Part shown: piece by piece, positions 26,533-52,916 of the stretch
How positions within the stretch are numbered: the stretch's first letter is position 1
How the letters are laid out: each line of letters starts with the position of its first letter
NCBI GenBank assembly: GCA_902615835.1
Contig: CACMQL010000008.1
Coordinates: 1 to 60,645, forward strand
From: an uncultured Verrucomicrobiota bacterium
GTDB taxonomy: Bacteria; Verrucomicrobiota; Verrucomicrobiia; Opitutales; Seribacteraceae
DNA length: 60,645 nucleotides
Direction of reading: 5' to 3'
Notes under the pieces: generated by a model
The model's database searches: none
What the model was told of the DNA's origin: nothing
What the model saw: the letters and a program-made list of their open reading frames with translations, nothing else
Program-made: the position numbers and the translations under genes

Positions 26533-26898
26533 ATGGGCAAGAGATTTGCCCTTGGATACCTGATCGTCCTTACCGTTGTGATGGGGGCTGCCCTGGCCTA
26601 CGGTTTTCTGGTAGGAGACTTTTGGGCAGATGGAGCGGAACTGATGGACAATCCGTGGGGGGTTGTTTCCCTGTTCGATGTCTATGTGGGATTCTTTTTC
26701 TTTATCGGCTGGGTCTGGTACCGTGAGTGTTGTCTCGGAGCCAAGGCTTTCATGACGGTGGCAATCCTGCTCGGAGGAAATCTAATCTGTGGGATTTATG
26801 CGGTGTTTACCTTGCTTACAAGCAAGGGTGACCCTCAGGTTTTCTTTTTGGGAAACGGGAAGAAAGAAGCTACGGTTTCCGAAACAGATAGTGACTGA
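26533..26898 (+). CDS. DUF1475-like small membrane protein
   Basis: A 121-residue protein with three or four membrane helices (about 5-27, 45-63, 72-98). The central NPWGVVSLFDVYVGFFFF and LLGGNLICGIYAV stretches fit the DUF1475 pattern (DPW..TLIDAYFGF ... LLGNIAMS). The ATG at 26533 has GAGG 9 bases upstream. The open frame upstream overlaps metY and is not used. It follows metY by 10 bp, so it is probably co-transcribed; its last 29 bases overlap the convergent methyltransferase gene. Function unknown. Confidence 0.75.
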   Translation: MGKRFALGYLIVLTVVMGAALAYGFLVGDFWADGAELMDNPWGVVSLFDVYVGFFFFIGWVWYRECCLGAKAFMTVAILLGGNLICGIYAVFTLLTSKGDPQVFFLGNGKKEATVSETDSD

Positions 26899-27910
26899 CC
26901 CACCATTCCTGCCCTTTGGCAAATCCGAAAGTCTCGGCACAGGCGAGGAAAAAGATGCGCCAGCGGTGAAACATCCTGATGGCTTCATCGGGGCTCATTT
27001 CCTTCTCGAAAATGGGTAAGACTTCGGTTTTTCTACGATCAAGGTTTTCCAGCCAGCATTCCGAGGTCTTGGCATAATGTTGCCCGGACCAACGCCAGCG
27101 GGATTCCAGTTCCAGTGGCCCGGCGATGCGTAAAAATAATTCATCCGCAGGCATGGTGCCACCGCTAAAAAAGTGTTTCGACATCCAGTCATCCTCGCCA
27201 TCAACTTCGAAGGGGTAGGAGGTGGAACGATGGCAGAAAACATGGGTGAAGAGTTTGCCTTCTTCTTTGAGCCATGCATGAATCCGTTTGAACAAACCCC
27301 GGTGGTTGCGGACATGTTCAAACATTTCCACGGAAACCACCCGGTCGAAAGTTTGGTCGGGTTCAAAGGTGTTCACATCCGCAGTGACCACCTTAAGGTT
27401 AGTCAGTTTTCTTTCCCTGGCCTGTCCCATTATATATTCACGCTGGGAATTGGAATTCGATACTGAGATAATCCTGGCTTGGGGGAATTGTTTCGCCATC
27501 CATAGGGACAGGGAACCCCATCCGCACCCGAGTTCAAGAATCCGCTGCCCATCCTCAAGGTCCGCATGTTCAGAGGTCAGTTCGAGAGCCCGGTCCTCCG
27601 CAGTGGAAAGGTCGCTTACCAGTTCTTCGAAATAGCAGGAGCTGTATTTGAGATTTTTTCCCAAGACCCGGTGATAAAAAAGGGCAGGCACTTCGTAATG
27701 CTGTTCATTGGCTTTGTCAGTAAGCACTGCAAGGGGTGATTCATCCACAGACCGCATATATTCTTCCACCAGTTCCGCATTGACTTCGCAATCATCAGTC
27801 CGGCATTGTTGAAGGCGTTTACGGCAAAGATTGCGGATTCCGGCCCGGATCAGAAAGTCGGGAACAAATCCGCGTTCAGCCAGTTCGATAAATGTGTCGG
27901 TCAGGCCCAT
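26870..27910 (-). CDS. Cyclopropane-fatty-acid-synthase-like SAM methyltransferase
   Basis: A 346-residue enzyme of the mycolic/cyclopropane methyltransferase family. HYEVPALFYHRVLGKN and YSSCYF match the lipid-binding N-terminal motif, ILELGCGWGSLSLWMA (residues 124-139) binds SAM, and VVSVEMFEHVRNH is the following active-site loop. It differs from the full Cfa in the same operon by lacking the long N-terminal domain, and it resembles UfaM-type enzymes that methylate unsaturated phospholipid acyl chains. It is the last gene of the eight-gene minus-strand operon begun by a sigma factor. The likely substrate is a membrane phospholipid acyl chain; whether the product is cyclopropane, methyl-branched or furan fatty acid is not decided by sequence. 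Confidence 0.88.
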   Translation of the reverse strand: MGLTDTFIELAERGFVPDFLIRAGIRNLCRKRLQQCRTDDCEVNAELVEEYMRSVDESPLAVLTDKANEQHYEVPALFYHRVLGKNLKYSSCYFEELVSDLSTAEDRALELTSEHADLEDGQRILELGCGWGSLSLWMAKQFPQARIISVSNSNSQREYIMGQARERKLTNLKVVTADVNTFEPDQTFDRVVSVEMFEHVRNHRGLFKRIHAWLKEEGKLFTHVFCHRSTSYPFEVDGEDDWMSKHFFSGGTMPADELFLRIAGPLELESRWRWSGQHYAKTSECWLENLDRRKTEVLPIFEKEMSPDEAIRMFHRWRIFFLACAETFGFAKGQEWWVSHYLFRKP

Positions 27911-27913
27911 GGT

Positions 27914-28714
27914 CTAGGAATCCGCCTTCCGGGGAGTTCGCGGAAAAAAGGAGGAAGTGGTCTTAACATAATTTTTGTATTCCTCTCCGCTGGCTTCCAG
28001 TTTACGGGCCTCGACGAAGGGAATCCCGGTGACTTTTACGAGAAATAGATAAAGGACGGGGGGAATGAGGAAGAGCCAGGGGCCACCGTCGGCAAAAAAA
28101 CCAAGCGGAATATAACCAAGCCATAGAATCCATTCAAAAAAGTAATTGGGATGCCTTGAATATTTCCATAGCCCGGTGTTGCATACTTCCTTCCGGCTGT
28201 CCTGATGTTTAAGTTTAAAGGCCCGCAATTGTTTATCCGCCAGGGTTACTCCAACAAAACCAGTGATCCAGATGATCAGACCGAGGTGGTCCCATATGCC
28301 AAGATCGCCCGGGTTTTGCACCAGGATTAAAAAGGGGGAAGCGAAAAGAACCACCCAGAAGGCTTGCACCTGAAAGAAAAAGAAAAAGCCCAGGTTAGCC
28401 TTTTTTCCGAGGTGCTCCCTCAGGTAGGCGTAGCGGGCATCCTCTGGTTTACCCCAACAGCGTCTGAGAAGATAGGTGCCCAAACGCAGTGACCATACCG
28501 CAAGAATTCCTTCCAGCACCGCAAGCCGGGCCGGATGGCACTGGTCTGATTGAATGACCAAAAAGCATAAACCGAGAACGCCGACCCCGTAAGCCCAGAG
28601 GACATCGACATAGGAGGTATTTTTAATAACCAGGGCAACCCCCCACCCAACAGCCATGACCACAGAAGCCCCCAACTGTCCGAATAAAAGAAGATCAAGC
28701 GTGCTCATGTTCAA
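27914..28714 (-). CDS. DUF1295 family membrane protein (steroid 5-alpha-reductase/ICMT-like)
   Basis: A 266-residue protein with six or seven membrane helices. The C-terminal motif NTGLWKYSRHPNYFFEW is typical of the DUF1295 and isoprenylcysteine-methyltransferase superfamily, where it binds NADPH or SAM; EEYKNYVKTTSSFFP closes the domain. It overlaps the DUF2878 gene upstream by 20 bp and lies 3 bp from the methyltransferase downstream, so it is tightly coupled in the lipid operon. A role as a lipid reductase is inferred. DUF1295 genes commonly sit beside cyclopropane synthase and FAD amine oxidase genes in light-stress clusters of Proteobacteria. Confidence 0.88.
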   Translation of the reverse strand: MNMSTLDLLLFGQLGASVVMAVGWGVALVIKNTSYVDVLWAYGVGVLGLCFLVIQSDQCHPARLAVLEGILAVWSLRLGTYLLRRCWGKPEDARYAYLREHLGKKANLGFFFFFQVQAFWVVLFASPFLILVQNPGDLGIWDHLGLIIWITGFVGVTLADKQLRAFKLKHQDSRKEVCNTGLWKYSRHPNYFFEWILWLGYIPLGFFADGGPWLFLIPPVLYLFLVKVTGIPFVEARKLEASGEEYKNYVKTTSSFFPRTPRKADS

Positions 28715-29231
28715 TAGTTGCTGGGAATTTCAGGTGGAGAAAGTGAAAGGCCAGTCCGGCAATCGCCCATTCCACGGCAATGCCCATGGCCGAGAACCAG
28801 GAATGGGTAAATTCGAGTACGCCCAATTGTTGTCCGGACCAATAGGCAATCACCCCGCCAAGGGCAAAACCGATGATCGAACGCATACTTTGATCAAGAA
28901 ACCAGGTAAATACGGGCCGTAACATGATGCCAAAACATACCCATAAGCTGATCATCCACAATGGATTACCCACGATGTTGGGGTAGGGGGGAAATTGTAA
29001 AAGATTAAGTTGCACCAGAGTGGCGTCCCCGAGGATCCCCAAAAAAAGACAAACCACTGCGAAGGGAAGGGAGTTGCGGAACCGTCCCGTCATCCAGGCC
29101 CTGCCACTGACCAACAAGATACCGATGTACGGAGATATTGCAGGAATGGGTGTTTTGATGGCAAGAACGCATAAGACCCAGGCTGCCTTAAAGATTAGAA
29201 TATCGAAGAGAAATGAAAACCTGGCATTCAT
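28695..29231 (-). CDS. DUF2878 family membrane protein
   Basis: A 178-residue protein with about five membrane helices. FKAAWVLCVLA, LGILGDATLVQLNLLQFP and GNPLWMISLWVCFGIML fit DUF2878, a family known mainly from Proteobacterial clusters with cfa, DUF1365 and an FAD amine oxidase. The start at 29231 forms an ATGA overlap with the cfa stop and has AAGGA nearby, so it is preferred over the upstream start at 29258. Function unknown; probably acts on or protects membrane lipid. Confidence 0.82.
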   Translation of the reverse strand: MNARFSFLFDILIFKAAWVLCVLAIKTPIPAISPYIGILLVSGRAWMTGRFRNSLPFAVVCLFLGILGDATLVQLNLLQFPPYPNIVGNPLWMISLWVCFGIMLRPVFTWFLDQSMRSIIGFALGGVIAYWSGQQLGVLEFTHSWFSAMGIAVEWAIAGLAFHFLHLKFPATIEHEHA

Positions 29232-30496
29232 GAGGGAAATCCTTTGGCCAATGTACATGCTGGTTTGGTCAGGAGGAGGTGTATGTCACCGGTGTATCCT
29301 TCTTCAAAACCCGCCTCGCAATAGCATAAATAATAAATCCAGGCCCGGCGGAACTGCTCATCATATCCGAGTTTGGCGATCCTGTCCTCATTTTCCAGAA
29401 AACGCAGGCGCCATTCCCGAAGAGTCCGGGCATAATGATAGCCGAAATCAAAAATATTGGTCGGGCGCAGGTCCGATTTCTGAACGACGGCTTCCACCAT
29501 GGCTGAGATGGAGGGAACATGACTGCCCGGAAATACGCGGGTACGAATATAATCAACTTCCTTACAATACTGGGAATATCGATGATCCGGCATGGTGATT
29601 GCCTGTATCATGGCGGCTCCATCGGGTCTTAGAAGATCAGCGATCTTGGAAAAATAGGTTGGCAGGTATTCGTGGCCGACCGCTTCGATCATCTCGATGG
29701 AAACCACGCGGTCAAAATGTCCGCTGAGATTGCGGTAATCCTGTTTTACGATGGAGATTCGATCCGCCATGCCCAGGTTTTCAACCCGATTACGGGCATA
29801 CTTGAATTGTTCGTCTGAAATGGTCGTGGCGGTAAGCTTGGCTCCGGTTCTTTGGGCAAGCCGGGCGGCAAAACCTCCCCAACCACACCCAATCTCAAGC
29901 ACCCGGTGGCCTGAATCAATTTTCAACTGATCAATAATACGGTCATACTTGGCAAGGGAAGCCTCTTCCAGAGTGGTTTTTTCACTTGCAAAGATTCCGC
30001 AGGAATAAGTCATGGTTGGGTCGAGCATCAACTTGTAAAAATCATTACCCAAATCGTAATGGAGGGAGATATTTTTACGGCTTCCCTGAATGGTGTTTTT
30101 TTGACTGAGAAGGTAGATCCACCGGGCACATTTATTTAAGAGGGTGGCCCAGCCACCTTCCATCCCGTCCATTACCTGCTTGTTTTGCAGAAAAAATCGG
30201 AAAAAACGGACGAGATCAGAGGAGTCCCAGTCACCAGCGGTATAGCTGTCGGCAACCCCGAGGGACCCTCCGAGGCAGGCCTTGCGAAAAAAGGCACTTC
30301 GATGAATCCGCAAATCAGCCTGTAAACCAACCCCATAGTCTTCGCCAAAGGTTTTTTGGCCGGATGAAAATTTGAGCTGAAGGCAGCCTTTTTCAGATAA
30401 CTTAAGTTGCCTGTAAAGTGCCTTTTCAAAAAAGCCCATGTTCCCTTCAGTATCTTTGGGATAGCCCACAAATTGATCTTCTGCCCGTTCAGTCAT
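29228..30496 (-). CDS. cfa: Cyclopropane-fatty-acyl-phospholipid synthase
   Basis: A 422-residue full-length Cfa that adds a methylene from SAM across the double bond of an unsaturated phospholipid acyl chain. An N-terminal lipid-binding domain (about 20-130, including VADSYTAGDWDS) is followed by ISLHYDLGNDFYKLML, MTYSCGIF, the SAM site VLEIGCGWGGFAARLA and VVSIEMIEAVGHEY. The desaturase in the same operon could supply its substrate. It overlaps DUF1365 upstream (8 bp) and DUF2878 downstream (4 bp). Confidence 0.94.
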   Translation of the reverse strand: MTERAEDQFVGYPKDTEGNMGFFEKALYRQLKLSEKGCLQLKFSSGQKTFGEDYGVGLQADLRIHRSAFFRKACLGGSLGVADSYTAGDWDSSDLVRFFRFFLQNKQVMDGMEGGWATLLNKCARWIYLLSQKNTIQGSRKNISLHYDLGNDFYKLMLDPTMTYSCGIFASEKTTLEEASLAKYDRIIDQLKIDSGHRVLEIGCGWGGFAARLAQRTGAKLTATTISDEQFKYARNRVENLGMADRISIVKQDYRNLSGHFDRVVSIEMIEAVGHEYLPTYFSKIADLLRPDGAAMIQAITMPDHRYSQYCKEVDYIRTRVFPGSHVPSISAMVEAVVQKSDLRPTNIFDFGYHYARTLREWRLRFLENEDRIAKLGYDEQFRRAWIYYLCYCEAGFEEGYTGDIHLLLTKPACTLAKGFPS

Positions 30497-31253
30497 GCGT
30501 AGCTTTCAAATGCTTGGGATGGGAAAAAAAAGGGCAACCTTTAAGGCGGAGTAGCAGGGCGTTCCAGTAAATGGCTGCCGACACTTTAACCGTCATGAAA
30601 GGGAACCGGAACAAGGCATAGGATAGGTTTTTGGAGGAGATGTCTTTTTGTTTCAAGTGTAAATGGGCAGAAAAGAAGTCTCGTTTGTTCTGCCGTAGAT
30701 ACATGTCCACCTTATTGGTTTCCCCGGGATTGAGGAATCTCCAGTCATATTCCACATCCATGCCAATGAAAGGGGAAACATGAAATTCCTTCCGAAATTC
30801 ATGCACACTTTTTCCTTTATTTTCTGAATCACCCCAATGAAAGCACCGAGCATATTTTTCACCCCAGGGCGTGTTGGTGATTTCCGCCATCACTGCACGG
30901 GGTTTTTTCAGATCATCCGCCCAGAGGTAGTAAAAAGTAACGGGGTTAAAACAATATCCAAAAGTACGGAGATGGGTCAGGATTGATACCCGTCCGGAGA
31001 TTTTTTCACCCAGTTGCTTACTCATGGTTTCGTGCACCGCCTGTTCCAGGGATTCAACTTCGGGTCGGTGATAATCAGATCTTTGAAAACTTCCGAGATT
31101 TGAACGATTGACGGACCAGAACCAATGATTACGGAAGAGAATCTTGAGTTCGTCGAGAAACAGATGAGCCATAAACAACTTGTAGCGGAGGTTGTGAACC
31201 TTGGGCGATTTTCGGTGATGGCTCACCTTTCCGAAATAAAGGCAACTATTCAT
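30489..31253 (-). CDS. DUF1365 family protein
   Basis: A 254-residue protein with the family start SCLYFGKVSHHRKSPKVHNLRYKLFM and the motifs SILTHLRTFGYCFNPVTFYY and WGEKYARCFHW. DUF1365 proteins are nearly always found between an FAD amine oxidase and a cyclopropane synthase, as here. The activity is undefined; a role in the same lipid modification is inferred from that conserved arrangement. Its start shares its last base with the amine-oxidase stop region at 31253. Confidence 0.92.
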   Translation of the reverse strand: MNSCLYFGKVSHHRKSPKVHNLRYKLFMAHLFLDELKILFRNHWFWSVNRSNLGSFQRSDYHRPEVESLEQAVHETMSKQLGEKISGRVSILTHLRTFGYCFNPVTFYYLWADDLKKPRAVMAEITNTPWGEKYARCFHWGDSENKGKSVHEFRKEFHVSPFIGMDVEYDWRFLNPGETNKVDMYLRQNKRDFFSAHLHLKQKDISSKNLSYALFRFPFMTVKVSAAIYWNALLLRLKGCPFFSHPKHLKATHD

Positions 31254-32488
31254 TAAAGCTCAGCCCCGAAAGCCTTGCAGACCCGCAGGCCGCTGGTAAG
31301 TCCGTCTTCATGAAAACCATAGCCCCAATAAGCGCCGCAAAGTGAAATTCCTTTTCTGCGAATAAAATTTGGATGGTTCGCCTGTGCTTCCCTGCGGCCA
31401 GGGTGGTAGGTGGGATGGGAATATTGAAACCTTGCGTGCTCCTTGCAGTTATCGATCTGATCATCTTGATTAAGGGACACACAGAATGGTTCCCGGGTGG
31501 GCAGGCTTTGCAGAATATTCATATCATAACTAACCAAGGCGCTCTCATGACCCGATCCGGGGAGGTAGGCGTTCCAACTGGCCCGGGCAGATTGTCTTTT
31601 GGGTAGAACGGAATCATCCGAATGCAGGGTTATGTTATTCTTTTCGTATGGAAATGCACGAAGCAGGCCCGTCTCTTCGGCATCAGGATGCTGCAGCAGC
31701 CGAAGGGACTGGTCCGCATGACAGGCCAGAATTACCTCATCAAATGATCGAGAGGAACCGTCGGGGAAATGCAGTTCCACTCCAGTTTTTGTCCGGTTGA
31801 CTTGCCGGACGGGGGAATCGAGTTTAAGCCTCCCTCCCAACTCTTGAACGATCACATCGACATAAGTCCTGGACCCGCCCTGAATAACCCTCCAGACCGG
31901 TCGGTTGTTAGCTTGGAGCATCTGATGATTTGAAAGAAAATCGGTAACGAATTCCATGGGGAATTTTCCAAAACGATCAATCGAACAAGACCAAAGTGCT
32001 GATCCGAGGGGAAGCAGGAAGGAATCGCGAAATCTTTTCCCCAGACGGTTGCGCTTGATGAAATGATCCACCGTTTCGTCGGGATTTGAAAGGTTTTCAG
32101 CAAGTTTATGAAACTTGAGAATATCCATGACCATACCCCAGTGGCCCGGACTGGTCAGGTTGCGGAAGTGCCCCAAAAGCCCCACAATGGATTCGCCACT
32201 GTATTCGATACCGGTATTTTCGGAACGTACCGAAAACCCCATGCGTGTTTGCTGAGAGACAACCTTGAGTTTTTCAAGCAAGCGAACAAAATTGGGGTAA
32301 TTTTCGCGATTGAAGACGATGAAGCCGGTGTCAACCTGAAAGATACCGGTCCGTCCCTTCGTTTGGACGGTGTTGACATGACCGCCTGGACGAGAATCAG
32401 ACTCAAATAGAGTGATTTCGTTTTCTTCGCCAAGCAGGTGGGCACAGATCAGTCCCGAGATTCCAGATCCAACGATTGCAATCCTCAT
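31253..32488 (-). CDS. FAD-dependent amine-oxidase-like protein (NAD(P)-binding Rossmann)
   Basis: A 411-residue flavoprotein. The N-terminus RIAIVGSGISGLICAHLLG, ESDSRPGGHVNTVQ and FQVDTGFIVFNRENYPNF bind FAD, and the C-terminal GISLCGAYWGYGFHEDGLTSG is the second FAD motif. It matches the FAD oxidases of DUF1365/Cfa light-stress clusters, where related proteins are implicated in oxidising methylated fatty acyl chains. It probably acts on membrane lipids. It lies 15 bp after the desaturase. Confidence 0.92.
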   Translation of the reverse strand: MRIAIVGSGISGLICAHLLGEENEITLFESDSRPGGHVNTVQTKGRTGIFQVDTGFIVFNRENYPNFVRLLEKLKVVSQQTRMGFSVRSENTGIEYSGESIVGLLGHFRNLTSPGHWGMVMDILKFHKLAENLSNPDETVDHFIKRNRLGKRFRDSFLLPLGSALWSCSIDRFGKFPMEFVTDFLSNHQMLQANNRPVWRVIQGGSRTYVDVIVQELGGRLKLDSPVRQVNRTKTGVELHFPDGSSRSFDEVILACHADQSLRLLQHPDAEETGLLRAFPYEKNNITLHSDDSVLPKRQSARASWNAYLPGSGHESALVSYDMNILQSLPTREPFCVSLNQDDQIDNCKEHARFQYSHPTYHPGRREAQANHPNFIRRKGISLCGAYWGYGFHEDGLTSGLRVCKAFGAEL

Positions 32489-32503
32489 CCGAGAATGAGG
32501 AAA

Positions 32504-33418
32504 TTACTGATCTTTTGCCTTTTCCTTGACCCAGGCGGGGACCGGACGAAGTTCGCTGACCAAACCGAAAAAAGACATCATTCGCAATACAGTATATGTC
32601 AGATCGTATTCCCCCTTGAAAAAACCCTGACGGGCAGAACCTGGAAAAAAATGGTGGTTGTTGTGCCAACCTTCACCGAATGTAAAAAGGGCTACCAAGG
32701 AATTGTTTCTGCTTTCGTCGCCGGTTTCGAACCTTTTCTTTCCCCACAAATGGGTGAGGGAATTGACCGCAAAAGTGGCATGGTATAAAAGGATGGTGGG
32801 AATTACAAATCCCCAGACAAAAGTCATCATACCATTCATCCCAGTCACCGTGCTGAACCAAGTCCATTCCCCTAATTGGTAGCATACTCCGCCCCAAATT
32901 ACCACGGGAATCCAATCATAACGGTTAATGAAACGAAGTTCGGGAAACTTAAGCCAGTCCGGAATTTCTTTCAGAAATGTGGGCACAGCATAATCGGTCA
33001 TAAACCATAAGGTGTGGCTCCAAAACAAACTATTTGTTTTGGGTGAGTGCATATCTTTATCAGTGTCAGAATGACGATGATGCCGCCGGTGATGTGCGGC
33101 CCACCAAAGAGGTCCTCTTTGAGCGGAACAACATGCAGTGAATGCCCCAAGGAACTGAACAATCCGGTTGGTCTTGAATGCCCGGTGTGAAAAATAACGG
33201 TGGTAAAACGCGGTGATGGCAAACATACGGACCGAATAGGAAATTATGCATACAAACAAACATGGCCAAACAAAAGGTTGCCAGAAAGAAAGTAAGAGCA
33301 ATCCGTGTATAATCAAATATGGAACGCAGCGGAACCACTCCACTTGTGCACCCGAATTGGGAGGTTCTGAGAAGGTCTCAGGAGGTGGGAGAACCCACTT
33401 GGCTATAGATTTTGACAT
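32504..33418 (-). CDS. Acyl-CoA/acyl-lipid delta-9-type fatty acid desaturase
   Basis: A 304-residue integral membrane di-iron enzyme. Three histidine boxes are visible: HRYFSH (residues 73-78), HHRRHH (109-114) and HNNHH (252-256). Hydrophobic helices lie near 33-70 and 165-215. It introduces a double bond in a saturated acyl chain, producing the substrate that Cfa-type enzymes need. It begins immediately after the sigma factor stop (TAAATG on the minus strand), so the two are translated from one message. Confidence 0.94.
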   Translation of the reverse strand: MSKSIAKWVLPPPETFSEPPNSGAQVEWFRCVPYLIIHGLLLLSFWQPFVWPCLFVCIISYSVRMFAITAFYHRYFSHRAFKTNRIVQFLGAFTACCSAQRGPLWWAAHHRRHHRHSDTDKDMHSPKTNSLFWSHTLWFMTDYAVPTFLKEIPDWLKFPELRFINRYDWIPVVIWGGVCYQLGEWTWFSTVTGMNGMMTFVWGFVIPTILLYHATFAVNSLTHLWGKKRFETGDESRNNSLVALFTFGEGWHNNHHFFPGSARQGFFKGEYDLTYTVLRMMSFFGLVSELRPVPAWVKEKAKDQ

Positions 33419-34363
33419 TTACGCGGCTGAATCCAAAATGAGTGAAAGTTCAAGAGGACTCATTTTGGTTTTACCACGTAATTCTTTTCCTACAAGCTTA
33501 TCTAGCTGACGAAAATCAAGTTTTCCACTCTGCATTAGAACTGCCCGCAATTTTCTTAGACCAAGAGCTTCCAATTGCCGAACTCGTTCACCCGATACAT
33601 TCAAGACATCTGCGATTTCGTCCAGCTTCATGGAATCATCTTGACCGATGCCAAATCTCATCGAAAGTACTTTTCTTTCGCGCTGGTCAAGAAAACTTAA
33701 GGCAACGGACATATCGTCCGAAAGAGAACCGTCTTCGCGGTAGGATTGATTGACCTCATCTTCGGCAGACATCATGTCAGAAAGTGTTTGGTTAGAATCT
33801 TCACCAAGTGGCTCATCCAAGGAAAGAGTGCTGGCAGGTGCGAACTTGACCCGGTTGGAAAGGTTGCGGTCCTTGCCCAAGATTTCATTTACCTCCGCAT
33901 CAGAAGGGGTTCTGCCAAGATCGACCTGTAATTGAGTCCGCACCAAATTTTCTTTACGTTTTCCTTGGGAAACATCATGCGGTACTGCGACCGCGCTTGA
34001 CATTTTACCGATCAAACGCTGAATACGTTGACGAATCCACCACGCAGCGTAGGTACTAAGTTTAATTCCTCTGGTATGATCAAACTTGTCAAGGGCCACA
34101 ACCAAACCGTGGATACCTTCCGCCATAATGTCTTCCATAGGGACGCAGGTTTGGCGAAATTTGAGGGCGATGGAAGCCACTAGACGAACATGTCTTTCAA
34201 TGAGTTCTTTACGTGCTTCATCACTGCCTTTAGACATTTTAATGAATAATTCGTCACACTCCTCTTTGGTAGGGGGTGCCATGCGTGAACGATCAGAGAT
34301 GAATCTACCTATCGGATCTAAGTTGCCGTCTTGGATAGTTGCGTGGGATTTAGTGTTTGCCAT
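33419..34363 (-). CDS. Sigma-70 family RNA polymerase sigma factor (group 2/3 type)
   Basis: A 314-residue sigma factor, first gene of the lipid operon. Region 2 spans about 45-118 (LIERHVRLVASIALKF, ILAEGIHG-like IMAEGIHGLVVALDKFD, STYAAWWIRQRI). Region 3 is about 125-190, and region 4 about 225-285 (LDQRERKVLSMRFG, LDEIADVLNVSGERVRQLE). The absence of region 1.1 and of the non-conserved insert, with regions 2-4 complete, makes it an alternative primary-like factor, not an ECF type. The frame extends to 34402; the ATG at 34363 (MANTKSH) is preferred. It probably transcribes its own operon and other genes here. Upstream lie CTAATAAG-type repeats. Confidence 0.92.
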   Translation of the reverse strand: MANTKSHATIQDGNLDPIGRFISDRSRMAPPTKEECDELFIKMSKGSDEARKELIERHVRLVASIALKFRQTCVPMEDIMAEGIHGLVVALDKFDHTRGIKLSTYAAWWIRQRIQRLIGKMSSAVAVPHDVSQGKRKENLVRTQLQVDLGRTPSDAEVNEILGKDRNLSNRVKFAPASTLSLDEPLGEDSNQTLSDMMSAEDEVNQSYREDGSLSDDMSVALSFLDQRERKVLSMRFGIGQDDSMKLDEIADVLNVSGERVRQLEALGLRKLRAVLMQSGKLDFRQLDKLVGKELRGKTKMSPLELSLILDSAA

Positions 34364-34402
34364 AACAGTTAATAGAACGAAAGGTTGTAATTCTAAGATC
34401 AC

Positions 34403-37176: not shown

Positions 37177-38739
37177 CTAGTTCAAACTGGCTTTGAATCG
37201 GGCTAAGTTTTCTTTGGCCGCCAATTTACGATCAACCATTGGTTCGGGGTAATCCTTACCGATTACACAACCGGCGTGCTCCTGTACCTCCCGCGGGGCC
37301 AAATGAGGTTCGTAAATGTATTTTACGGGAAAGTTTTTTAATTCCGGTACCCAGTGCCGGATGAATCCCGCATCCACCGCGTCCACATTGAGGCTCGATT
37401 TTCCGTCCGGACAGGGGTTGTAGAGCCGGAAATAAGGCATGGAAAAGGGAGCCACCCCGGATAACCATAACCAGTTTGCATTGTTGAGGGCCCAATCACT
37501 GTCCAAGAGCTTTTGTTCAAAGACATTGCGTCCTTCTTGCCAATGTTGCCAAAGTTGGCCGCGTGTTAGAAAACAGGACACCGCATGGCGCCCGAGGTGA
37601 TGCATCCATCCAGTCGAGTCTAATTGGCGCATTAACGCATCCAAAAGAGGGAATCCCGTTTGACCATCCTTCCAGGCTGACAATTTAGTATCGTCCTTTT
37701 CTCCCCATTTTATTTTCTTACACATGGTATTGTCCTGATCGGAATCCCAATTGGGTACCGACAAGGAGAGGAGATAAAACATTTCCCGAAAAAGAAGCTG
37801 TCCATGGAGTGATTCAGGCGGGCCCGAATGTGGGCCTTCTCGGTTGGCCCTCTCGACTTCCATCCACAACCGTTTTACGGATAAGGACCCCGTTGCAATG
37901 TATGGGGACAAACCCGTAGTACTCGGTTCCATAGGGTTTTCAGGCAAATTGGTGGAAGTTGTTTTGGGCTTTCTGAATGAATTGACGAAATCCTGCCTGG
38001 AGGAAACCTTGCGCTCGAGACGGGCAAGAGCCTCAGTTTCTCCGCCCCTGAAATAAAAATTTTCAGCAGTGGTTTTGAGGAATCCGAGATCGGAGAATTT
38101 ATTTTTCAAAGAATTTACTGAATGAACCTCGCCGGCAAAATGACTGGAGACTTTCTTCAGGGAGAAGCCTTCGGGGGAATTTTTTAGATTTGCTGGTTCA
38201 GCAAGTGGATGGGGGATTTTGTAGAAACCTTCAGCATCTCTGGGATACGTGAGAGCAAAAACTTTCTCAATATCCTTCATCGATTTTGGGTTCTTAAATC
38301 CTGGTTGCGAAAGGGTTTTATCAAGATCCAAGAGGGTATGGGTGGCTGGATGAAAATGGGATTGAATGCTGGAATCTTTTGTGAGAAGCTCCGAAATCTT
38401 GCGACCATGGGGTTCAGAGCAATAGTCCGAAGAAAGTAATTTGAGATGATCGCCAAGGATGGACTTCAAGGATTGGATCGCATCTTGAGGAGAACCCCAG
38501 AATATGATCAGGGAATTGTCAGACTTGGATTTAATCCGGGAATTTAAATCATCGAGATTTTCGCAGAGAAAACGCAAACGGTTGTTACCGTATTTTTCAA
38601 ATTGAACACCGAATATCTCCGGATCCAAAATAAAAATCGGTAGCATGGATGTGATCTGATCATCGTTGATGATTTCGCACAGAGCGGGATTGTCATGGAG
38701 TCGAAGACATTTGCGGAACCAAACTATGGCGGAGCTCAT
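37177..38739 (-). CDS. Cryptochrome/photolyase, eukaryotic (6-4)/animal-CRY-like
   Basis: A 520-residue flavoprotein. The N-terminal antenna domain starts IVWFRKCLRLHDNPAL. The FAD domain has LSPYIATGSLSV, LHGQLLFREMFYLLS, KIKWGE, WKDGQTGFPLLDALMRQL, WMHHLGRHAVSCFLTRG and LLDSDWALNNANWLWLSG. These, especially the HHLxRHAVxCFLTRG segment and the WALNxxNWLWLS segment, match eukaryotic (6-4) photolyases and animal cryptochromes better than bacterial CPD enzymes. His381 and His385 correspond to the two histidines required for (6-4) repair. It follows the CPD photolyase gene by 42 bp. DNA repair is more likely than signalling, but both are possible. Confidence 0.85.
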   Translation of the reverse strand: MSSAIVWFRKCLRLHDNPALCEIINDDQITSMLPIFILDPEIFGVQFEKYGNNRLRFLCENLDDLNSRIKSKSDNSLIIFWGSPQDAIQSLKSILGDHLKLLSSDYCSEPHGRKISELLTKDSSIQSHFHPATHTLLDLDKTLSQPGFKNPKSMKDIEKVFALTYPRDAEGFYKIPHPLAEPANLKNSPEGFSLKKVSSHFAGEVHSVNSLKNKFSDLGFLKTTAENFYFRGGETEALARLERKVSSRQDFVNSFRKPKTTSTNLPENPMEPSTTGLSPYIATGSLSVKRLWMEVERANREGPHSGPPESLHGQLLFREMFYLLSLSVPNWDSDQDNTMCKKIKWGEKDDTKLSAWKDGQTGFPLLDALMRQLDSTGWMHHLGRHAVSCFLTRGQLWQHWQEGRNVFEQKLLDSDWALNNANWLWLSGVAPFSMPYFRLYNPCPDGKSSLNVDAVDAGFIRHWVPELKNFPVKYIYEPHLAPREVQEHAGCVIGKDYPEPMVDRKLAAKENLARFKASLN

Positions 38740-38781: not shown

Positions 38782-40233
38782 CTACGCAGTCTTAAGGGTG
38801 GCCAGGGCAGCCAGGGCACGGGCCCGCCCCTCAGAATGGTCGATGCAGGGTTCCGGGTAATTGCCTCCCAAATCAACCCCGTTCTCTTCGAGCATGGAAG
38901 CGGGAGCTTCCCAGGGTTTAAAAACATATTTGGAGGGAAGATTTTCAAGTGGAGGAATCCATCTTTTGGCATATGCTCCACGGGCATCGAATTTTTCGCC
39001 CTGAGTAATGGGATTAAAAATACGAAAATAGGGAGCGGCATCTGCACCGCATCCGGCTGCCCACTGCCAGCCCTGGGTATTGCTGGCGAGGTCGGCATCG
39101 ACCAAGGTGTCCCAGAACCAGCGGGCACCTTCCGTCCATGAAATTAAGAGATGTTTTACCAAAAAGGATGCAACCACCATCCGCACCCGGTTGTGCATCC
39201 AACCGGTTTCGTAGAGTTGACGCATGCCGGCATCGACCATCGGGTATCCGGTGTTGCCAAGTTGCCACCGCTCAAGGTTGGTCTGGTCGTCAAGCCAGGG
39301 AAAGGCTGCATACTTGGGGCGTAAAGGCTGGTCAGGGATTGATGGATAATGATAAAGCAAATGATATGAAAATTCACGCCATCCGATCTCGACCAGAAAT
39401 TTATTTTCCCCACGATGACTACCCTGATTGTCTGCCTGAAGGACACTTTGACAGATTTGACGCGGGCTGATCAGACCCCAGGCGAGATATGGGGAGAGCC
39501 TGGAAGTGCCGTCGACGGAGGGATTATTTCGTCGGGTCGAGTACGAATGAGTAACTTCATTCACGGTTCTTTCCAGCTGGGCATGGGCAGCGGATTCGGA
39601 GACCGTCCAATGATCTTCCAGTTTTTGATGCCAACCGTAAGCCGGTAATAGATTGAGATCATCGAGGGATAGTTTTGGGGTAGGCGAAGAATTAAAACGC
39701 AAAATGGTTGGGTCGTAGTCGACCGGTTGCCTGTAGATGATGGGACGGGACTTTCTCCAGTAAGGAGTGAATACCTGAAAGGGGTTTCCAGATCCGTTCT
39801 TGGTCTCCCAGGGTTCCTGGAGCAGGGAGGCATTGAAAGATTCGGCGTCAATTCCCGCCCGATCCAGGGCATCTTCAACTTTCTCCTGAGTGGATAAGCC
39901 GGGCGGATCATAAGTCCTTCCGTAGAACACCTTTTCTGCACCATGATCCTTGGCAATTTGTGGAATCAGTTCGCCCGCTTTTCCCATCGCGATAATGAGC
40001 TCACCACCTAATTTGCGGATGTCCGTACCGAGGCTTTTCAAGGCGTGGTGAATCCACCATCGGGAGGCGGAACCAGGACTCCATTGGCCCCCTTCCTCCG
40101 GATTCCAGATAAAAACAGGTAAAATCTTATAGCCTCCTGAAACCGCGGCGTGCAGGGACGGGTTGTCCATCAGGCGAAGATCCTTGCGGAACCAAACGAC
40201 AGCAGTAGACCCGGAGGAATTTTCTGCAATCAT
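38782..40233 (-). CDS. phrB: Deoxyribodipyrimidine photolyase, class I CPD type
   Basis: A 483-residue enzyme that repairs cyclobutane pyrimidine dimers with blue light. TAVVWFRKDLRLMDNPSL opens the antenna domain; SRLSPYLAWGLISPRQI, WREFSYHLLYHYP, GNTGYPMVDAGMRQL, GWMHNRVRMVVASFLVK, and DADLASNTQGWQWAAG (FAD and substrate loop) followed by RIFNP are typical of class I. Its start overlaps the stop of the SDR gene (ATGA), so the two are coupled; the (6-4)-like gene follows. Confidence 0.93.
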   Translation of the reverse strand: MIAENSSGSTAVVWFRKDLRLMDNPSLHAAVSGGYKILPVFIWNPEEGGQWSPGSASRWWIHHALKSLGTDIRKLGGELIIAMGKAGELIPQIAKDHGAEKVFYGRTYDPPGLSTQEKVEDALDRAGIDAESFNASLLQEPWETKNGSGNPFQVFTPYWRKSRPIIYRQPVDYDPTILRFNSSPTPKLSLDDLNLLPAYGWHQKLEDHWTVSESAAHAQLERTVNEVTHSYSTRRNNPSVDGTSRLSPYLAWGLISPRQICQSVLQADNQGSHRGENKFLVEIGWREFSYHLLYHYPSIPDQPLRPKYAAFPWLDDQTNLERWQLGNTGYPMVDAGMRQLYETGWMHNRVRMVVASFLVKHLLISWTEGARWFWDTLVDADLASNTQGWQWAAGCGADAAPYFRIFNPITQGEKFDARGAYAKRWIPPLENLPSKYVFKPWEAPASMLEENGVDLGGNYPEPCIDHSEGRARALAALATLKTA

Positions 40234-40943
40234 GGATTCAACCGCAACATGGAGAGTCCGGCATCCACCTTGAGAATCTGTCCGGTGATGGATGTGGCTG
40301 CATCGGAATGAAGGAAGGCAAGGGTGGATGCGATCTCTTCCACTTCAGGGATTTTCTTTAAGGGATGCCTGCCTTCGATCATGGGCAGCATTTTTTCTCC
40401 GCCCACCATCGCGGTTCCCATTTCTGTGGGAGTCAGGGTAGGGGCCACCACATTCACCCTTACCTTGGGTGCAAGATCAGCGGCCAATGCGATCGCAAAC
40501 CCTTCCAATGCCGATTTGGCTGCGGAGATGGCACAGTGGTTGGGCAGGCCGGTGCGGGCAGCCACTGATGAGAGCAGGGCAATTGATCCATCCAAACGGG
40601 GCAACAAGGCTTGAATCGCGGTGAAGGCATCAAGCACACTGGTTTGATAAGCTTCCAGCATTTGTTCCGTTTTGAGGCGTTTGATCGGACCAAGAATGAC
40701 TTTACCCGGGCAGAAGGTCAGGGCATGAAGGGTTTCAGGCAGGGAGTTGAGATAGCTCGCCGGGTCGGTGGCACTGGCGGTGATCCACTGACACGACTCG
40801 GGTTTATTTTCGGGAATGCTTCTTGAAAGAGCGTAGACCTGGTGACCTGCTTGAACTGATAAATCCACCAGTGCACGGCCGATCCCGCGGGAGGCCCCAA
40901 TGATCAGGTGGTTGGTGGTATTTGATTTACTGGTTGAATCCAC
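40230..40943 (-). CDS. Atypical short-chain dehydrogenase lacking the catalytic tyrosine
   Basis: A 237-residue SDR fold. The nucleotide motif is IIGASRGIG (14-22), followed by LSSVAARTGLP with the active-site Ser126 and then HCAISAAKSALEGFA. The Lys143 of YxxxK is present, but the Tyr position is Ile139. VRVNVVAPTLTPTEMG closes the domain. Related SDR proteins in photolyase clusters also lack this Tyr, so the loss seems a subfamily trait rather than decay. It is the first gene of a three-gene operon with two photolyases and is divergent from umuDC. A role as a cofactor-binding or flavin-related protein is an inference. Confidence 0.88.
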   Translation of the reverse strand: MDSTSKSNTTNHLIIGASRGIGRALVDLSVQAGHQVYALSRSIPENKPESCQWITASATDPASYLNSLPETLHALTFCPGKVILGPIKRLKTEQMLEAYQTSVLDAFTAIQALLPRLDGSIALLSSVAARTGLPNHCAISAAKSALEGFAIALAADLAPKVRVNVVAPTLTPTEMGTAMVGGEKMLPMIEGRHPLKKIPEVEEIASTLAFLHSDAATSITGQILKVDAGLSMLRLNP

Positions 40944-41005
40944 ATTGATAGATCGTAGAATTCTTCAGATTAGATCAAGTTATTACTTTATCCTTCTCTT
41001 GCCTT

Positions 41006-42808: not shown

Positions 42809-44143
42809 CTATTTGCCGAAGTCAAAACAGGCAATTTGCTCGCCGTTACGGGCCAGCAGGTAGCCATTGACAAAGGCGGGTCCGTTCCAGCAACGGGCAT
42901 TGCCAAGGAGTTGACGGGAGGAAACTTCGCGGAATTTTTCCGGGGATGCATCGATCACTGAAAGCACGCCGGAATGTCCAAGAATCAATAGTTTTTGATC
43001 AAGCAGCAGGATTCTTCCATAGCTGTACTTCTTTCCCCGCCACATCAATTTACCCGTTTTCGCTTCCAAACAAACCAGTAGATTTTCACTGAATCCGTAA
43101 ATATACCCATTCTTGAACACGGGGTTGGAAAATTTGGCCTTTAAGTTTTTGGATGTCCAAGAGGATTCGACGCGATACTTTACACTGCCTGGTTCGCGGG
43201 CGACAATAAAACATTCCGCCCCTTTCCCATAACCAGCAGCGAGCACGAAGGAATTGGATGAGACCGGAATAGGCTGTGCGATCTGTACATTGTTTATGAA
43301 AATCTTCCAAGGTTTTTCCCAAAGGGTTTTACCGTTTCTGGGATCCAGGGAAACGATCTTTCCCACAACGGAGACGAGCAAATGGTCTTCGCCAAGGAGG
43401 CGGAGGATTTCCGGGGATAGGTAGACACCCTTACCGACCAGTTGAGATTTCCAGAGTTGTTTTCCCGTTTCAATTGAATATGCCCTTGCCGCTGCCGATT
43501 CACCACCCAAACTTAGGATGATCATATTATTCCAAATCAGCGGAGAGATGGAAAGACCCCATTCAGGAAATTCATAATCATCGGGGATAACAGGAATATT
43601 CCATTCCACTTTCCCCGTGTTTGCATCCACACGGCATAACCGACCGCTGGTAAAAAGGGCATAGATTTTCCCCTTGTACAATGTGGGGGTTGACCGCGGA
43701 CCCGTACCGCTAAACATATCATGCCATTTTGTGTTTTCTGCCACCCTCCAAACTTGCGTACCATCCTCTAAACTTCTGGCAGTCAACAGTTCTTGTCCCT
43801 GCTCCTGCTCCATGGTGACCACGAGTTTCCCGGAGGTTACGATCGAGGAATGCCCAAGTCCGCAGGTGGTGGACCATCTTTCCTTTGCTGGTTTGGTCCA
43901 ATCGATGGAAATGGTTTGAGCTGGAATGTGACCATTTCTTTTTGGCCCGCGGAATTGATTCCAGTTGGCGGATAGGTCCCGCAATGGTGGTCTGTAAAAA
44001 TCGCGTGGTGGATCCTCACTCCTTGGATTGCTACTGGATAAGTCCAAGTGGGGTATCATTCCACCTCGCCATTCCATACTTATGCATCCGCTAAGCAGAA
44101 GCAGGGCAAGTGATGGGAAAAGAAATTTACGAAATTTTTTTAT
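42809..44143 (-). CDS. PQQ-like beta-propeller lipoprotein, apparent AUA start
   Basis: A PQQ/WD40-like propeller of about 444 residues. Repeats such as ARSLEDGTQVW, VDANTGKVEWNIP, SIETGKQLWKSQ, LDPRNGKTLWEK and LEAKTGKLMW define the blades; NWNQFRGPKRNG is the usual opening of this family in PVC bacteria. The first ATG (44077) would omit the export signal. In frame upstream, codons from ATA at 44143 encode KKFRKFLFPSLALLLLSGC, a complete lipoprotein signal with lipobox LSGC, and that ATA overlaps the glutathione peroxidase stop as ATAA. The likely start is therefore AUA (or a mutated ATG). The role is unknown; probably an envelope assembly or binding protein. Confidence 0.8.
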   Translation of the reverse strand: MKKFRKFLFPSLALLLLSGCISMEWRGGMIPHLDLSSSNPRSEDPPRDFYRPPLRDLSANWNQFRGPKRNGHIPAQTISIDWTKPAKERWSTTCGLGHSSIVTSGKLVVTMEQEQGQELLTARSLEDGTQVWRVAENTKWHDMFSGTGPRSTPTLYKGKIYALFTSGRLCRVDANTGKVEWNIPVIPDDYEFPEWGLSISPLIWNNMIILSLGGESAAARAYSIETGKQLWKSQLVGKGVYLSPEILRLLGEDHLLVSVVGKIVSLDPRNGKTLWEKPWKIFINNVQIAQPIPVSSNSFVLAAGYGKGAECFIVAREPGSVKYRVESSWTSKNLKAKFSNPVFKNGYIYGFSENLLVCLEAKTGKLMWRGKKYSYGRILLLDQKLLILGHSGVLSVIDASPEKFREVSSRQLLGNARCWNGPAFVNGYLLARNGEQIACFDFGK

Positions 44144-44676
44144 CCCTGGAGAGCTTCTTCGATTGCCTTGATTAACTTTCTGGAAGTCGGAGAGGTCATG
44201 CTGCCAAAACGGTCAATGGGATTGCCGTCCTTACCCACAAGGATTTTTCCAAAATTCCATTTAACATTTCCCTTGAGTGGTCCGTTCTCACCAATGATGT
44301 CTTTGTAGATTGGATGGCGATTTGGTCCGTTCACATTGATCTTGGAATACATGGGGAAGCTGACACCGTACTTAGTGGAGCAAAATTCCTTGATTTCAGA
44401 TTCGGAACCTGGTTCCTGTCCTCCAAACTGGTTGCAGGGAAAACCGCAAACAACCAAGCCTTGGTCCTTGTATTTATCGTATAGTTCCTCAAGTCCCTTG
44501 TATTGACGGGTAAACCCGCAACGGGAAGCGACATTTACCATTAGAATGACTTTACCCTTATGCTCGGCAAGAGTGGTGGATTCTCCGTCAATTGATTTCA
44601 GGTCGTGGTCGTAAATGGATTTTGCGGTGGCTGTCATAATGATTGCAAGATTAAGAAGAAAAATAAGTGTCTTCAT
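44140..44676 (-). CDS. Glutathione peroxidase (Cys type), exported
   Basis: A 178-residue thiol peroxidase that reduces hydroperoxides. A signal peptide (about 1-18) suggests a periplasmic location. NVASRCGFTRQYKGLEELY holds the peroxidatic Cys, VVCGFPCNQFGGQEPG the Gln and the possible resolving Cys, and VKWNFGKILVGKDG the Trp. Such enzymes often use thioredoxin rather than glutathione. It overlaps the SOUL gene upstream by 4 bp (ATGA) and the lipoprotein gene downstream (ATAA), giving a three-gene operon. Confidence 0.93.
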   Translation of the reverse strand: MKTLIFLLNLAIIMTATAKSIYDHDLKSIDGESTTLAEHKGKVILMVNVASRCGFTRQYKGLEELYDKYKDQGLVVCGFPCNQFGGQEPGSESEIKEFCSTKYGVSFPMYSKINVNGPNRHPIYKDIIGENGPLKGNVKWNFGKILVGKDGNPIDRFGSMTSPTSRKLIKAIEEALQG

Positions 44677-45269
44677 GGTTGTTTCGGTGATTTAGGTTGA
44701 GATGGAATGTTGGTTGGTTGAATTTTAATCCGCCGTATGGGAATGTGAATTTCTGATCTTTTGAATAGACCAGGAATAAAGGGCCCGTTCCAGTAGACGC
44801 CATAAGGTGCCCCGTCGGGCTCAAAAGTGGTATTTTGATCAAGCCACTGGGTAAGCCGACTTACATTATCCAGAAATTTTTTTTCAGAATAGCTTCCACG
44901 GATACCGATCGAGACAACCTTACGGGGAGGAATTTTGCGTATCTGAACCTGATCCGAAGATTCAATTTTTCTGGAAAGATCTTTACTCCCAACAAAAAAT
45001 CTCATTTTGCCCGGATTTATGTCCGCTTCCACAGGGGTAGTCATGGAAATATCATTTTGGTTGATGTAACGGAATAATTTTCGAAACAGCCCGTTGTTTT
45101 CACTAAAGTATGATTTGTTCGTAGATGCCTCCATCGCCATTCGCTCAGGAAGTTCCAAAACAACAATTTTACCCACCGGTGTTTTGTCATGCATGTTTTC
45201 GTACGCAAACAAACTCAAGGAAAGCATTGTTGAGGCGATGGAGAGTATAAATTTCAATAACCTATTCAT
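44673..45269 (-). CDS. SOUL-family haem-binding protein, exported
   Basis: A 198-residue protein. A signal peptide (about 1-22, LSLSLFAYEN) is followed by the SOUL/HBP domain with LFRYINQNDISMTTPVEAD, the family signature, IRKIPPRKVVSIGIRGSYS and GVYWNGPFIPG near the end. SOUL proteins bind haem or porphyrins and are found in bacterial light-stress clusters. It is the first gene of the operon with glutathione peroxidase and the PQQ-like lipoprotein, a plausible porphyrin- and peroxide-handling set. Confidence 0.88.
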   Translation of the reverse strand: MNRLLKFILSIASTMLSLSLFAYENMHDKTPVGKIVVLELPERMAMEASTNKSYFSENNGLFRKLFRYINQNDISMTTPVEADINPGKMRFFVGSKDLSRKIESSDQVQIRKIPPRKVVSIGIRGSYSEKKFLDNVSRLTQWLDQNTTFEPDGAPYGVYWNGPFIPGLFKRSEIHIPIRRIKIQPTNIPSQPKSPKQP

Positions 45270-45364
45270 CGTTTCATAAGTGGGTTTAGATCAACTAGAA
45301 ACTTTTCTTTCCCGGAAGCGATGGCAGAAAACCGGAGGTCTGTCATTTTTTTGGAATTATAAAA

Positions 45365-45949: not shown

Positions 45950-45973
45950 AGAACCCCTCAATCTATCCGAAAT

Positions 45974-46882: not shown

Positions 46883-46950
46883 GTAAACTACCTTTTAATA
46901 AATGAGCGTATAGATCAATTAAAATAGTGCTAGAAATTAATGATTTAGGT

Positions 46951-50124: not shown

Positions 50125-50867
50125 TCCAAACTTTTTTGGATAAATTCATGGTGCAGCGTTGGAGTGATCTGCTTCTCCTTCACTGGCCCGTTTCGCAGGA
50201 AATTCTTCGCTCCACCATCCCTGATGATCTGGACTTGGATCTTTTTGAAGGACAGGCATGGACCAGCGTGGTTGGTTTTCATCTGTCTGGATTACGGATA
50301 CATCCCGTTCGTTGGATTCCATGGGGAGAATTTGATGAGGTAAACCTGAGAACTTATGTAAAAAGGGCGGATGGGAAAAGAGGGGTCTGGTTTTATTCCT
50401 TGGATTCAACGGATATATTTGCGGTGTTCGGTGCGCGCATTCTCTACGGACTCGACTATCGTTCAGCCCATATAAACAGAACTTTAACCGCTCGTGCCCT
50501 CTTTTATGAATCGACCACTCATTGGATATTCAGAAAGATACCTGCCAGATTTGGTGCTCAGTTGGATAAATCCGCCGGTTCATCAAGGATTGCCCGGGGA
50601 CCGCTCGATCAGTTTTTACTTGAACGGTACCGGTTTTGGGCAAGAAGAATGGCAGGAAGCAAATCAAGTTCTGCTCAGGTCAGGCATCGTCCCTATGATG
50701 CGGTGAGATTAAAAAGTGCTGAATATCGGGGAGGTTTGTTTGAAGCTTTTGGGCTGCCCGAGCCTCAGGTTCCACCGGTCATAGCTCATTACTGTCGGGG
50801 ATTTTCAGTGGAAGCATCCGCTCCGAATTGGCTTTATAAGACCGCGGGCCAGGCAAACCAAAGGTAG
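50121..50867 (+). CDS. DUF2071 family protein (YqjF-like)
   Basis: A 248-residue protein with the family layout: VQRWSDLLLLHWPVSQEIL, FEGQAWTSVVGFHLSGLRI, FDEVNLRTYVKR, GVWFYSLDST and the C-terminal HYCRGFSVEASAPNWL. The fold is acetoacetate-decarboxylase-like; no reaction is established. It is coupled to the SRPBCC gene (ATGA), and its last 34 bp overlap the convergent anti-sigma gene. Confidence 0.88.
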   Translation: MIQTFLDKFMVQRWSDLLLLHWPVSQEILRSTIPDDLDLDLFEGQAWTSVVGFHLSGLRIHPVRWIPWGEFDEVNLRTYVKRADGKRGVWFYSLDSTDIFAVFGARILYGLDYRSAHINRTLTARALFYESTTHWIFRKIPARFGAQLDKSAGSSRIARGPLDQFLLERYRFWARRMAGSKSSSAQVRHRPYDAVRLKSAEYRGGLFEAFGLPEPQVPPVIAHYCRGFSVEASAPNWLYKTAGQANQR

Positions 50868-52125: not shown

Positions 52126-52683
52126 TCAAGTCCGTAAGGTGGCCAGGGTGTGTCTAAGTTTTTCGATTCCTAGACGAATGCGTGATTTGACTGTCCCAAG
52201 AGAGAGTTCCAAACGTTCAGAAATTTCTTCATGATTTAAACCCTTGAAATAGGAAAGTTCCAAAACTTTCACCTGCTCGGGGGGAAGCTTTTCAAAAGCC
52301 CGCCTCAGATGACTACGCTCATCACTAACGGTTGCCTGTTCTGCACCATCGGAGGCATTCTGATCCTCTCTCCCTGAGAGAATCTCATCCGATTCACCCC
52401 GATCGACTCTTCTTTTCCGGGAACGTACGCGGTCAATGCTTCGGTTGCGGGTCAAAACCAAGAGCCAGCTGCTGAATTTCCCTTTATCCGGTGCATAGGA
52501 TTCAGGCTTGCGCCAAAGAAAGGCAAAAATGTCTTGAATTACCTCTTCAGCTTCCCAACGATCGCCAAGAATTTCCAGGGATAAGGAAAACATTGCACCG
52601 GCAAACCCGTCGTATAAATCCACTAAGGCGGAGGAATCTCCGTCTTTTATTTTGTACCATAAGTCATTTTCGATCGTAGGCAT
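52126..52683 (-). CDS. ECF sigma factor (SigK/RpoE-like)
   Basis: A 185-residue extracytoplasmic-function sigma factor with only regions 2 and 4. Region 2 (about 20-90): LVDLYDGFAGAMFSLSLEIL, AEEVIQDIFAFLWRK and SSWLLVLTRNRSIDRVRSRK. Region 4 (about 128-180): FEKLPPEQVKVLELSYFKGL, NHEEISERLELSLGTVKSRI. The sequence is close to the group controlled by RskA-type anti-sigma proteins. The adjoining anti-sigma gene and the surrounding photo-oxidative genes suggest a stress role. An inverted repeat with 8-bp arms lies just upstream. Confidence 0.93.
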   Translation of the reverse strand: MPTIENDLWYKIKDGDSSALVDLYDGFAGAMFSLSLEILGDRWEAEEVIQDIFAFLWRKPESYAPDKGKFSSWLLVLTRNRSIDRVRSRKRRVDRGESDEILSGREDQNASDGAEQATVSDERSHLRRAFEKLPPEQVKVLELSYFKGLNHEEISERLELSLGTVKSRIRLGIEKLRHTLATLRT

Positions 52684-52726: not shown

Positions 52727-52916
52727 AAGGCGTTTACCGCAATTGATTTTTTGCAGTCTCTTGCTGATTTTCCCTAAAAATGGGATATAAAAAGGCTCCT
52801 TACAAGGCGTATAACGGATGCTTTCTGGATTTCCGGGCCAGTTGGCTAATTTTCCCTTTTCCAGATCCTGAGTAATTGTTGGCATCCTCACCCAATGAGG
52901 AATGTTTTTGATCCGC

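Follow-up and report, generated by a model that had tools for sequence, protein, structure and literature searches.

Introduction

The singlet-oxygen/furan-lipid response is known mainly from Proteobacteria. In Rhodobacter, Pseudomonas and Shewanella, the RpoE-ChrR regulon is controlled by extracytoplasmic function (ECF) sigma factors of the ECF11 group through the promoter consensus TGATCC-N16-CGTA, which was obtained by chromatin immunoprecipitation sequencing in P. syringae (PMC5507510) and is the same for Shewanella RpoE2 (PMC4336711); the core regulon includes phrB, a short-chain dehydrogenase (SDR) gene and homologues of ufaD, ufaO and ufaM (PMC5507510, PMC4336711, PMC6852236). The Shewanella regulon also contains glutathione peroxidase (GPX), and in R. 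sphaeroides the alternative sigma factor RpoHII depends on RpoE. The furan pathway was established in R. sphaeroides and R. palustris by Lemke et al., who proved UfaM (CMAS), UfaD (a FAD protein) and UfaO (DUF1365), together with FufM, which gives the dimethyl product and whose substrate in R. palustris is a furan fatty acid (PMC7380195). Here we analyze contig CACMQL010000008.1 from an uncultured Verrucomicrobiota bacterium, the whole 60,645 nt (60.6 kb) of which is referred to as the window, and within it an operon in which a sigma gene precedes a desaturase gene and homologues of these lipid enzymes. We conclude that the operon is probably the lipid arm of an ECF-driven photo-oxidative-stress island, in which a group-2-like sigma factor has been recruited as a second tier.

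The island resembles the RpoE-ChrR system in its promoter type and in its photolyase, SDR, UfaD, UfaO and UfaM genes, the Shewanella regulon in its GPX, and the Rhodobacter regulon in having an alternative sigma factor as an apparent ECF target. Unlike RpoHII, however, the second-tier sigma here would be RpoD/RpoS-like, not RpoH-like, and is encoded within the furan operon. The R. palustris genes (RPA2571-2569 for ufaD-ufaO-ufaM and RPA0924 for fufM) belong to the same families, with the same ufa order and a FufM-type methyltransferase, but the window combines all of them in one operon and adds a desaturase, DUF2878, DUF1295 and a sigma gene at the head. Photolyase, SDR, FAD oxidoreductase and UfaM are also encoded at the light-induced LitR/CarH phrB-ufaM loci of Pseudomonas, whereas inspection of the window showed no open reading frame (ORF) for a MerR/B12-binding regulator next to the operon. 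In Chlamydomonas, the SAK1 singlet-oxygen regulon, which unlike the window's system is eukaryotic and phosphoprotein-regulated, induces GPX5, CFA, SOUL, a gene annotated as coclaurine N-methyltransferase (CNMT), DUF1365 and DUF1295 (PMC4067076). These families recur in the island, and their co-induction by singlet oxygen in green algae hints at an ancient shared module.

The enzymes are those of a known pathway; what is new is an ECF11-like regulon without ChrR and a primary-type sigma factor inside a furan operon. The locus would extend the response to Verrucomicrobiota of the sunlit ocean with a defined promoter motif, would provide a second, apparently independent example of a sigma cascade acting under an ECF regulator of photo-oxidative stress, and suggests a substitute for ChrR. 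The compact operon also offers a test bed for DUF2878 and DUF1295.

Results

Eight tightly packed ORFs occupy the minus strand from 34363 to 26870, with the RpoD/RpoS-like sigma gene first (Table 1). Pfam calls, in gene order, are sigma70 r2/r3/r4, FA_desaturase, Amino_oxidase/NAD_binding_8, DUF1365, CMAS, DUF2878, DUF1295 and CMAS. Intergenic distances are 0 bp between the sigma and desaturase genes, 15 bp from there to the FAD gene, -1 bp to the DUF1365 gene, -8 bp to the first cfa-like gene, -4 bp to the DUF2878 gene, -14 bp to the DUF1295 gene and +3 bp to the second methyltransferase gene (mt2). Conservation was surveyed by using the desaturase and the sigma factor as queries in 92 relatives and then reading the surrounding DNA; the source genome of the contig is 61% complete, and its named relatives are uncultured Opitutales/Opitutia represented by metagenomes and single cells. 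The full gene order was present in each of the four genera that make up the window's family, except where a contig ended and at one locus lacking a DUF2878 match, and the sigma gene was invariably directly 5′ of the desaturase gene. An Rfam search gave zero matches. A first-pass annotation of this DNA had described an eight-gene operon that begins with a primary-like sigma gene and has no gap above 15 bp, a description borne out by the ORFs, measured gaps and four-genus synteny, while Pfam agreed with its family assignments for all eight proteins; the sigma-desaturase pairing that it proposed to seek in related genomes occurs in all four genera. Separate internal promoters without sigma dependence were named there as evidence against its reading, and sigma-70 promoter-like and terminator-like matches inside the operon proved no more common than in shuffled sequence.

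Without the sigma gene, the lipid cassette is widespread, occurring in a sister Opitutales family, other Verrucomicrobiota, Lysobacterales, Methylococcales, Planctomycetes and Obscuribacterales. Regulators recognized by eye near the cassette in other Opitutales families include a MerR/B12-type gene (loci L068 and L069), an ECF/anti-sigma pair (L073) and an ECF gene (L071). Given this distribution and the different regulator genes beside it, the cassette is, judged from sequence, an old unit with exchangeable regulators. At loci from Oceanospirillales and related bacteria (L135, L137, L139, L148, L153, L157, L159 and L164) a photolyase gene directly precedes the cassette, and at several of these loci (e.g., L148, L159 and L164) TGATCC-N16-CGTA sites also precede the desaturase gene.

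Upstream of the 27 sigma genes, most of the DNA could not be aligned from one genus to another, apart from the motif TGATC(C/T)-N16-CG(T/A)TNTAT, located approximately 12 nt before the ATG. TGATCY-N16-CG was present at 27/27 family loci with variable spacers. Within the window TGATCY-N16-CGWT has three matches, all on the minus strand and each at the start of one of three operons: that of the sigma factor, that of the SDR and photolyases, and that of SOUL and GPX. The start of the SDR-photolyase operon carried the N16 form in 30 of 32 loci and an N17 form in the other two. The motif was not found at control genes of the same loci (ecf, 0/31; xnuc, 0/22; phr2, 0/20; metY, 0/10; pirin, 0/7). Other genome-wide matches to TGATCY-N16-CGTTNTA, such as that on contig C4 of the same genome, had no recurring downstream gene and were taken as chance. 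Promoters of the ECF11 type are present at core genes of that regulon, with the exact consensus at a sister-family SDR locus (L264). The position of the motif so close to the start codon suggests that the mRNAs are leaderless or near-leaderless.

Two sister-family genomes (91 and 95% complete) contain the cassette and lack the first-cistron sigma. One has TGATCC-N16-CGTA at its SDR-photolyase operon (L264) and TGATCC-N16-CGAA before the desaturase gene (L067), the other has TGATCT-N16-CGA at its SDR-photolyase operon (L265), and both encode orthologues of the window ECF sigma that are 57-73% identical to it. The ECF gene was found in 30 of 42 genomes of the window's family, in 17 of which it lies on one contig with the sigma operon, 8-22 kb away. 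Because the sigma-less relatives keep both the sites and the ECF gene, because that gene is linked to the operon, and because its kin are SigK and RpoE, we assign the site to the ECF sigma. The first-pass annotation had instead supposed that the first-cistron sigma autoregulates the operon and had contrasted the locus with ECF-driven gene sets of Proteobacteria; with a conserved ECF11-type promoter that is retained at homologous operons of sigma-less relatives, the first idea is not supported and the contrast largely disappears. A different conserved block, CAAAAAATCnnTTGCGG, lies approximately 70 nt before the ECF start (about 52740-52770, minus strand) in many members of the genus; it is not a TGATC motif and could be a promoter for another sigma factor.

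Table 1. Window coordinates of the genes and promoters discussed in the text
Feature	Position	Strand	Basis or remark
mt2, coclaurine-N-methyltransferase-like methyltransferase, FufM candidate	26870..27910	-	family match
DUF1295 steroid-reductase-like membrane protein	27914..28714	-	adjoins mt2 gene in most cassettes
DUF2878 membrane protein	28695..29231	-	Pfam
CMAS methyltransferase (first 'Cfa'), UfaM candidate	29228..30496	-	Pfam, gene order
DUF1365 protein, UfaO candidate (O2-dependent furan-ring formation)	30489..31253	-	Pfam, gene order
FAD amine-oxidase-like protein, UfaD candidate	31253..32488	-	Pfam, gene order
Membrane fatty-acid desaturase	32504..33418	-	histidine boxes HRYFSH, HRRHH, HNNHH
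Group-2-like (RpoD/RpoS-type) sigma, 314 aa, first cistron	33419..34363	-	profile matches, conserved tail
ECF11-type promoter TGATCT-N16-CGTT	34376..34401	-	12 nt before sigma ATG
Second photolyase/cryptochrome-DASH-like protein	37177..38739	-	
DNA photolyase	38782..40233	-	
SDR, first gene of photolyase operon	40230..40943	-	
Second regulon promoter TGATCT-N16-CGAT, upstream of SDR-photolyase operon	40952..40977	-	motif match
SOUL heme-binding protein and GPX	44140..45257	-	SOUL start likely TTG, about 45257
Third regulon promoter TGATCT-N16-CGAT, upstream of SOUL-GPX	45268..45293	-	motif match
Putative anti-sigma, 399 aa, encoded after ECF gene	50834..52033	-	N-terminal helices anti-sigma-like; zero Pfam matches
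ECF sigma, likely reader of the three promoters	52126..52683	-	same-contig linkage, orthologues in sister family

The Ufa and Fuf assignments are based on families, gene order and published similarity. The contiguous order FAD-DUF1365-cfa in the window is that of RPA2571-2570-2569 in R. palustris and of PSPTO_1118-1117-1116. Upstream of these genes, the desaturase probably supplies cis-monoene acyl chains as substrate. The mt2 product matches coclaurine/pavine N-methyltransferases, retains their E-x-F-E-H motif, and scores far better against coclaurine N-methyltransferase (E 2.7e-72) than against E. coli Cfa (7e-23). The plant relative of FufM is LIME1 (AT4G33110, 38% identity), which we take to be a member of the CNMT-like group. 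The coclaurine N-methyltransferase group also takes in the dimethyl-furan enzyme FufM/LIME1 (PMC7380195, PMC10940516). The second methyltransferase is accordingly placed with the coclaurine N-methyltransferases and not with UfaM, relative to which the first-pass annotation had proposed to place it and for which the first 'Cfa' is the candidate; mt2 is a candidate FufM-type enzyme for a second methylation giving a dimethyl furan fatty acid. With homologues of every known furan fatty acid enzyme, the operon appears to encode the whole pathway to dimethyl furan fatty acids, and among the products that had been suggested for this gene set, furan fatty acids fit the ufaD-ufaO-ufaM order and the FufM-type enzyme. 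No relevant report of furan fatty acids in Verrucomicrobia turned up in a search of the literature.

The first-cistron sigma has RpoD-type regions 2-4 and no region 1.1, and the genome encodes a separate primary sigma, which together fit a group-2-like sigma. Its start was set at the ATG at 34363 because in several relatives stop codons interrupt the same frame immediately before this position. The best-scoring models were RpoD and RpoS, with scores below the curated cut-offs. In region 4.2, every family member carries G or A at the R584-equivalent position, whereas the genome's own primary sigma keeps R; the region 2.4 contacts also differ from those of the primary sigma, and an extra C-terminal tail is conserved across the family. 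On account of these altered contacts and the tail, the protein probably reads a promoter class of its own. At E 1e-55 it was found in none of 387 other genomes of the phylum outside the family.

The 399-aa protein encoded after the ECF gene has a very highly conserved C-terminal domain that is unmatched in Pfam, and the protein also occurs in the sister family. It is possibly a new class of light/singlet-oxygen sensor. An AlphaFold model computed from three sequences had a mean pLDDT of 49 and was not used for fold search.

Discussion

The gene content of the island (two photolyases, SOUL, GPX and furan-lipid genes), its ECF11-like promoter and the Chlamydomonas parallel lead us to infer light/singlet oxygen as the inducing signal. 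We propose that the ECF sigma is held, presumably by the anti-sigma-like protein encoded downstream, until this stress frees it to act at the TGATCY-N16-CG(T/A)T promoters of three or more operons, among them SOUL-GPX, SDR-photolyases and sigma-desaturase-ufaD-ufaO-ufaM-DUF2878-DUF1295-fufM. Monoenoic acyl chains provided by the desaturase would be methylated by UfaM and then desaturated by UfaD, after which UfaO would close the furan ring with O2 and FufM would add the second methyl group, so that the end products would be dimethyl furan fatty acids, which scavenge singlet oxygen. Translated from that same mRNA, the group-2-like sigma would act as a second tier, recognizing promoters of its own and turning on further genes, comparable to RpoHII below RpoE. 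A more specific proposal is a singlet-oxygen cascade in which an unrecognised anti-sigma sensor, replacing ChrR, governs the ECF sigma, the ECF sigma controls the furan-lipid operon, and an RpoD/RpoS-like sigma subfamily found in one marine Opitutales family, having been built into that operon, serves as the second tier. This proposal is tentative, and we hold it to be possible rather than probable.

Several observations weigh against an ECF-driven, two-tiered island of the RpoE-ChrR kind. The co-occurrence of the ECF and first-cistron sigma genes (Fisher p ~0.001), which favors the proposal, is confounded by their linkage and by incomplete genomes. Among solved structures, the ECF protein is equally close to SigK (ECF19-like, 3.2e-22) and R. 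sphaeroides RpoE (1.4e-21), and with no TGATC site before its own gene in any of the 31 control loci, the autoregulation that is usual for ECF sigmas is not apparent. The SOUL-GPX site, present in the window and in two genera among its relatives, was not seen in unselected loci from the sister family or the remaining two genera; the motif pattern itself had served to pick most of the SOUL loci examined. Unlike the RpoE-ChrR promoters, those of the family mostly have CGTT or CGAT, not CGTA, at the -10 position. The anti-sigma-like partner is uncharacterised, and a search of 28 family genomes for the zinc/cupin anti-sigma ChrR gave matches above the cut-off in genome G004 only, where the ChrR-like protein is a probable contaminant and the second match is a different cupin protein; a weak match at 47341-47514 in the window is pirin, not ChrR. 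Finally, no target promoter of the group-2-like sigma could be defined, and cyclopropane synthesis is a possible alternative role of the UfaM candidate.

The last of these points underlies a different view of the lipid product, in which the operon is one for cyclopropane/methyl-branched lipids, the first Cfa-like enzyme makes cyclopropanes and the substrates of the FAD and DUF1365 proteins are other lipids. The enzyme's membership in the CMAS family is compatible with this, and FAD-domain fusions of such methyltransferases in plants are reported to make cyclopropanes. We nevertheless rate this view as unlikely, though not far-fetched: the fad-DUF1365-cfa order is that of the experimentally proven ufaD-ufaO-ufaM genes of R. 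palustris, and the same operon encodes a FufM-type enzyme, whose R. palustris namesake acts on a furan fatty acid. In addition, all 81 cassette homologues have Q at the position of E. coli Cfa H266, a bicarbonate-site residue, which argues against a canonical Cfa and does not by itself prove a UfaM. The absence of a definable second-tier promoter, together with the confinement of the sigma to one family, would likewise suit a passenger, or a local amplifier that boosts only its own operon and has no separate regulon; this is unlikely for a sigma that is intact, well conserved in four genera and equipped with a distinctive conserved C-terminal tail, as in a working regulator. Quite improbable, in our estimate, is a group-2-like sigma with acquired ECF-like specificity that itself reads TGATCY-N16-CG(T/A)T and autoregulates its own and the photolyase operons. 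The site does lie just upstream of the sigma gene at every one of the 27 loci, and the loss of the R584-equivalent and the changes in region 2.4 have probably altered its specificity, but the sigma-less sister-family genomes retain sites at the SDR-photolyase operon and before the desaturase gene, the same motif goes with an ECF sigma in Proteobacteria, and the nearest relatives of the first-cistron sigma are RpoD/RpoS types.

Neighboring genes

In most family loci, divergent exonuclease/ligase genes lie upstream of the sigma operon, with the photolyase genes farther upstream. In the window these are a ligase-associated exonuclease and an ATP-dependent ligase at 34450-37163 (plus strand), divergent from the sigma gene; the pair is missing from the stretch between photolyase and sigma in genome G016 and at the loci belonging to one further genus. 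SOS-type genes also sit within the island: 41037-42793 (plus strand) encodes, in divergent orientation to the SDR-photolyase promoter, a UmuD-like S24 peptidase and a UmuC-like polymerase. Genes for an AlkB-like dioxygenase, an HDOD-like protein and pirin, at 45365-47658 (minus strand), separate the ECF gene from SOUL-GPX.

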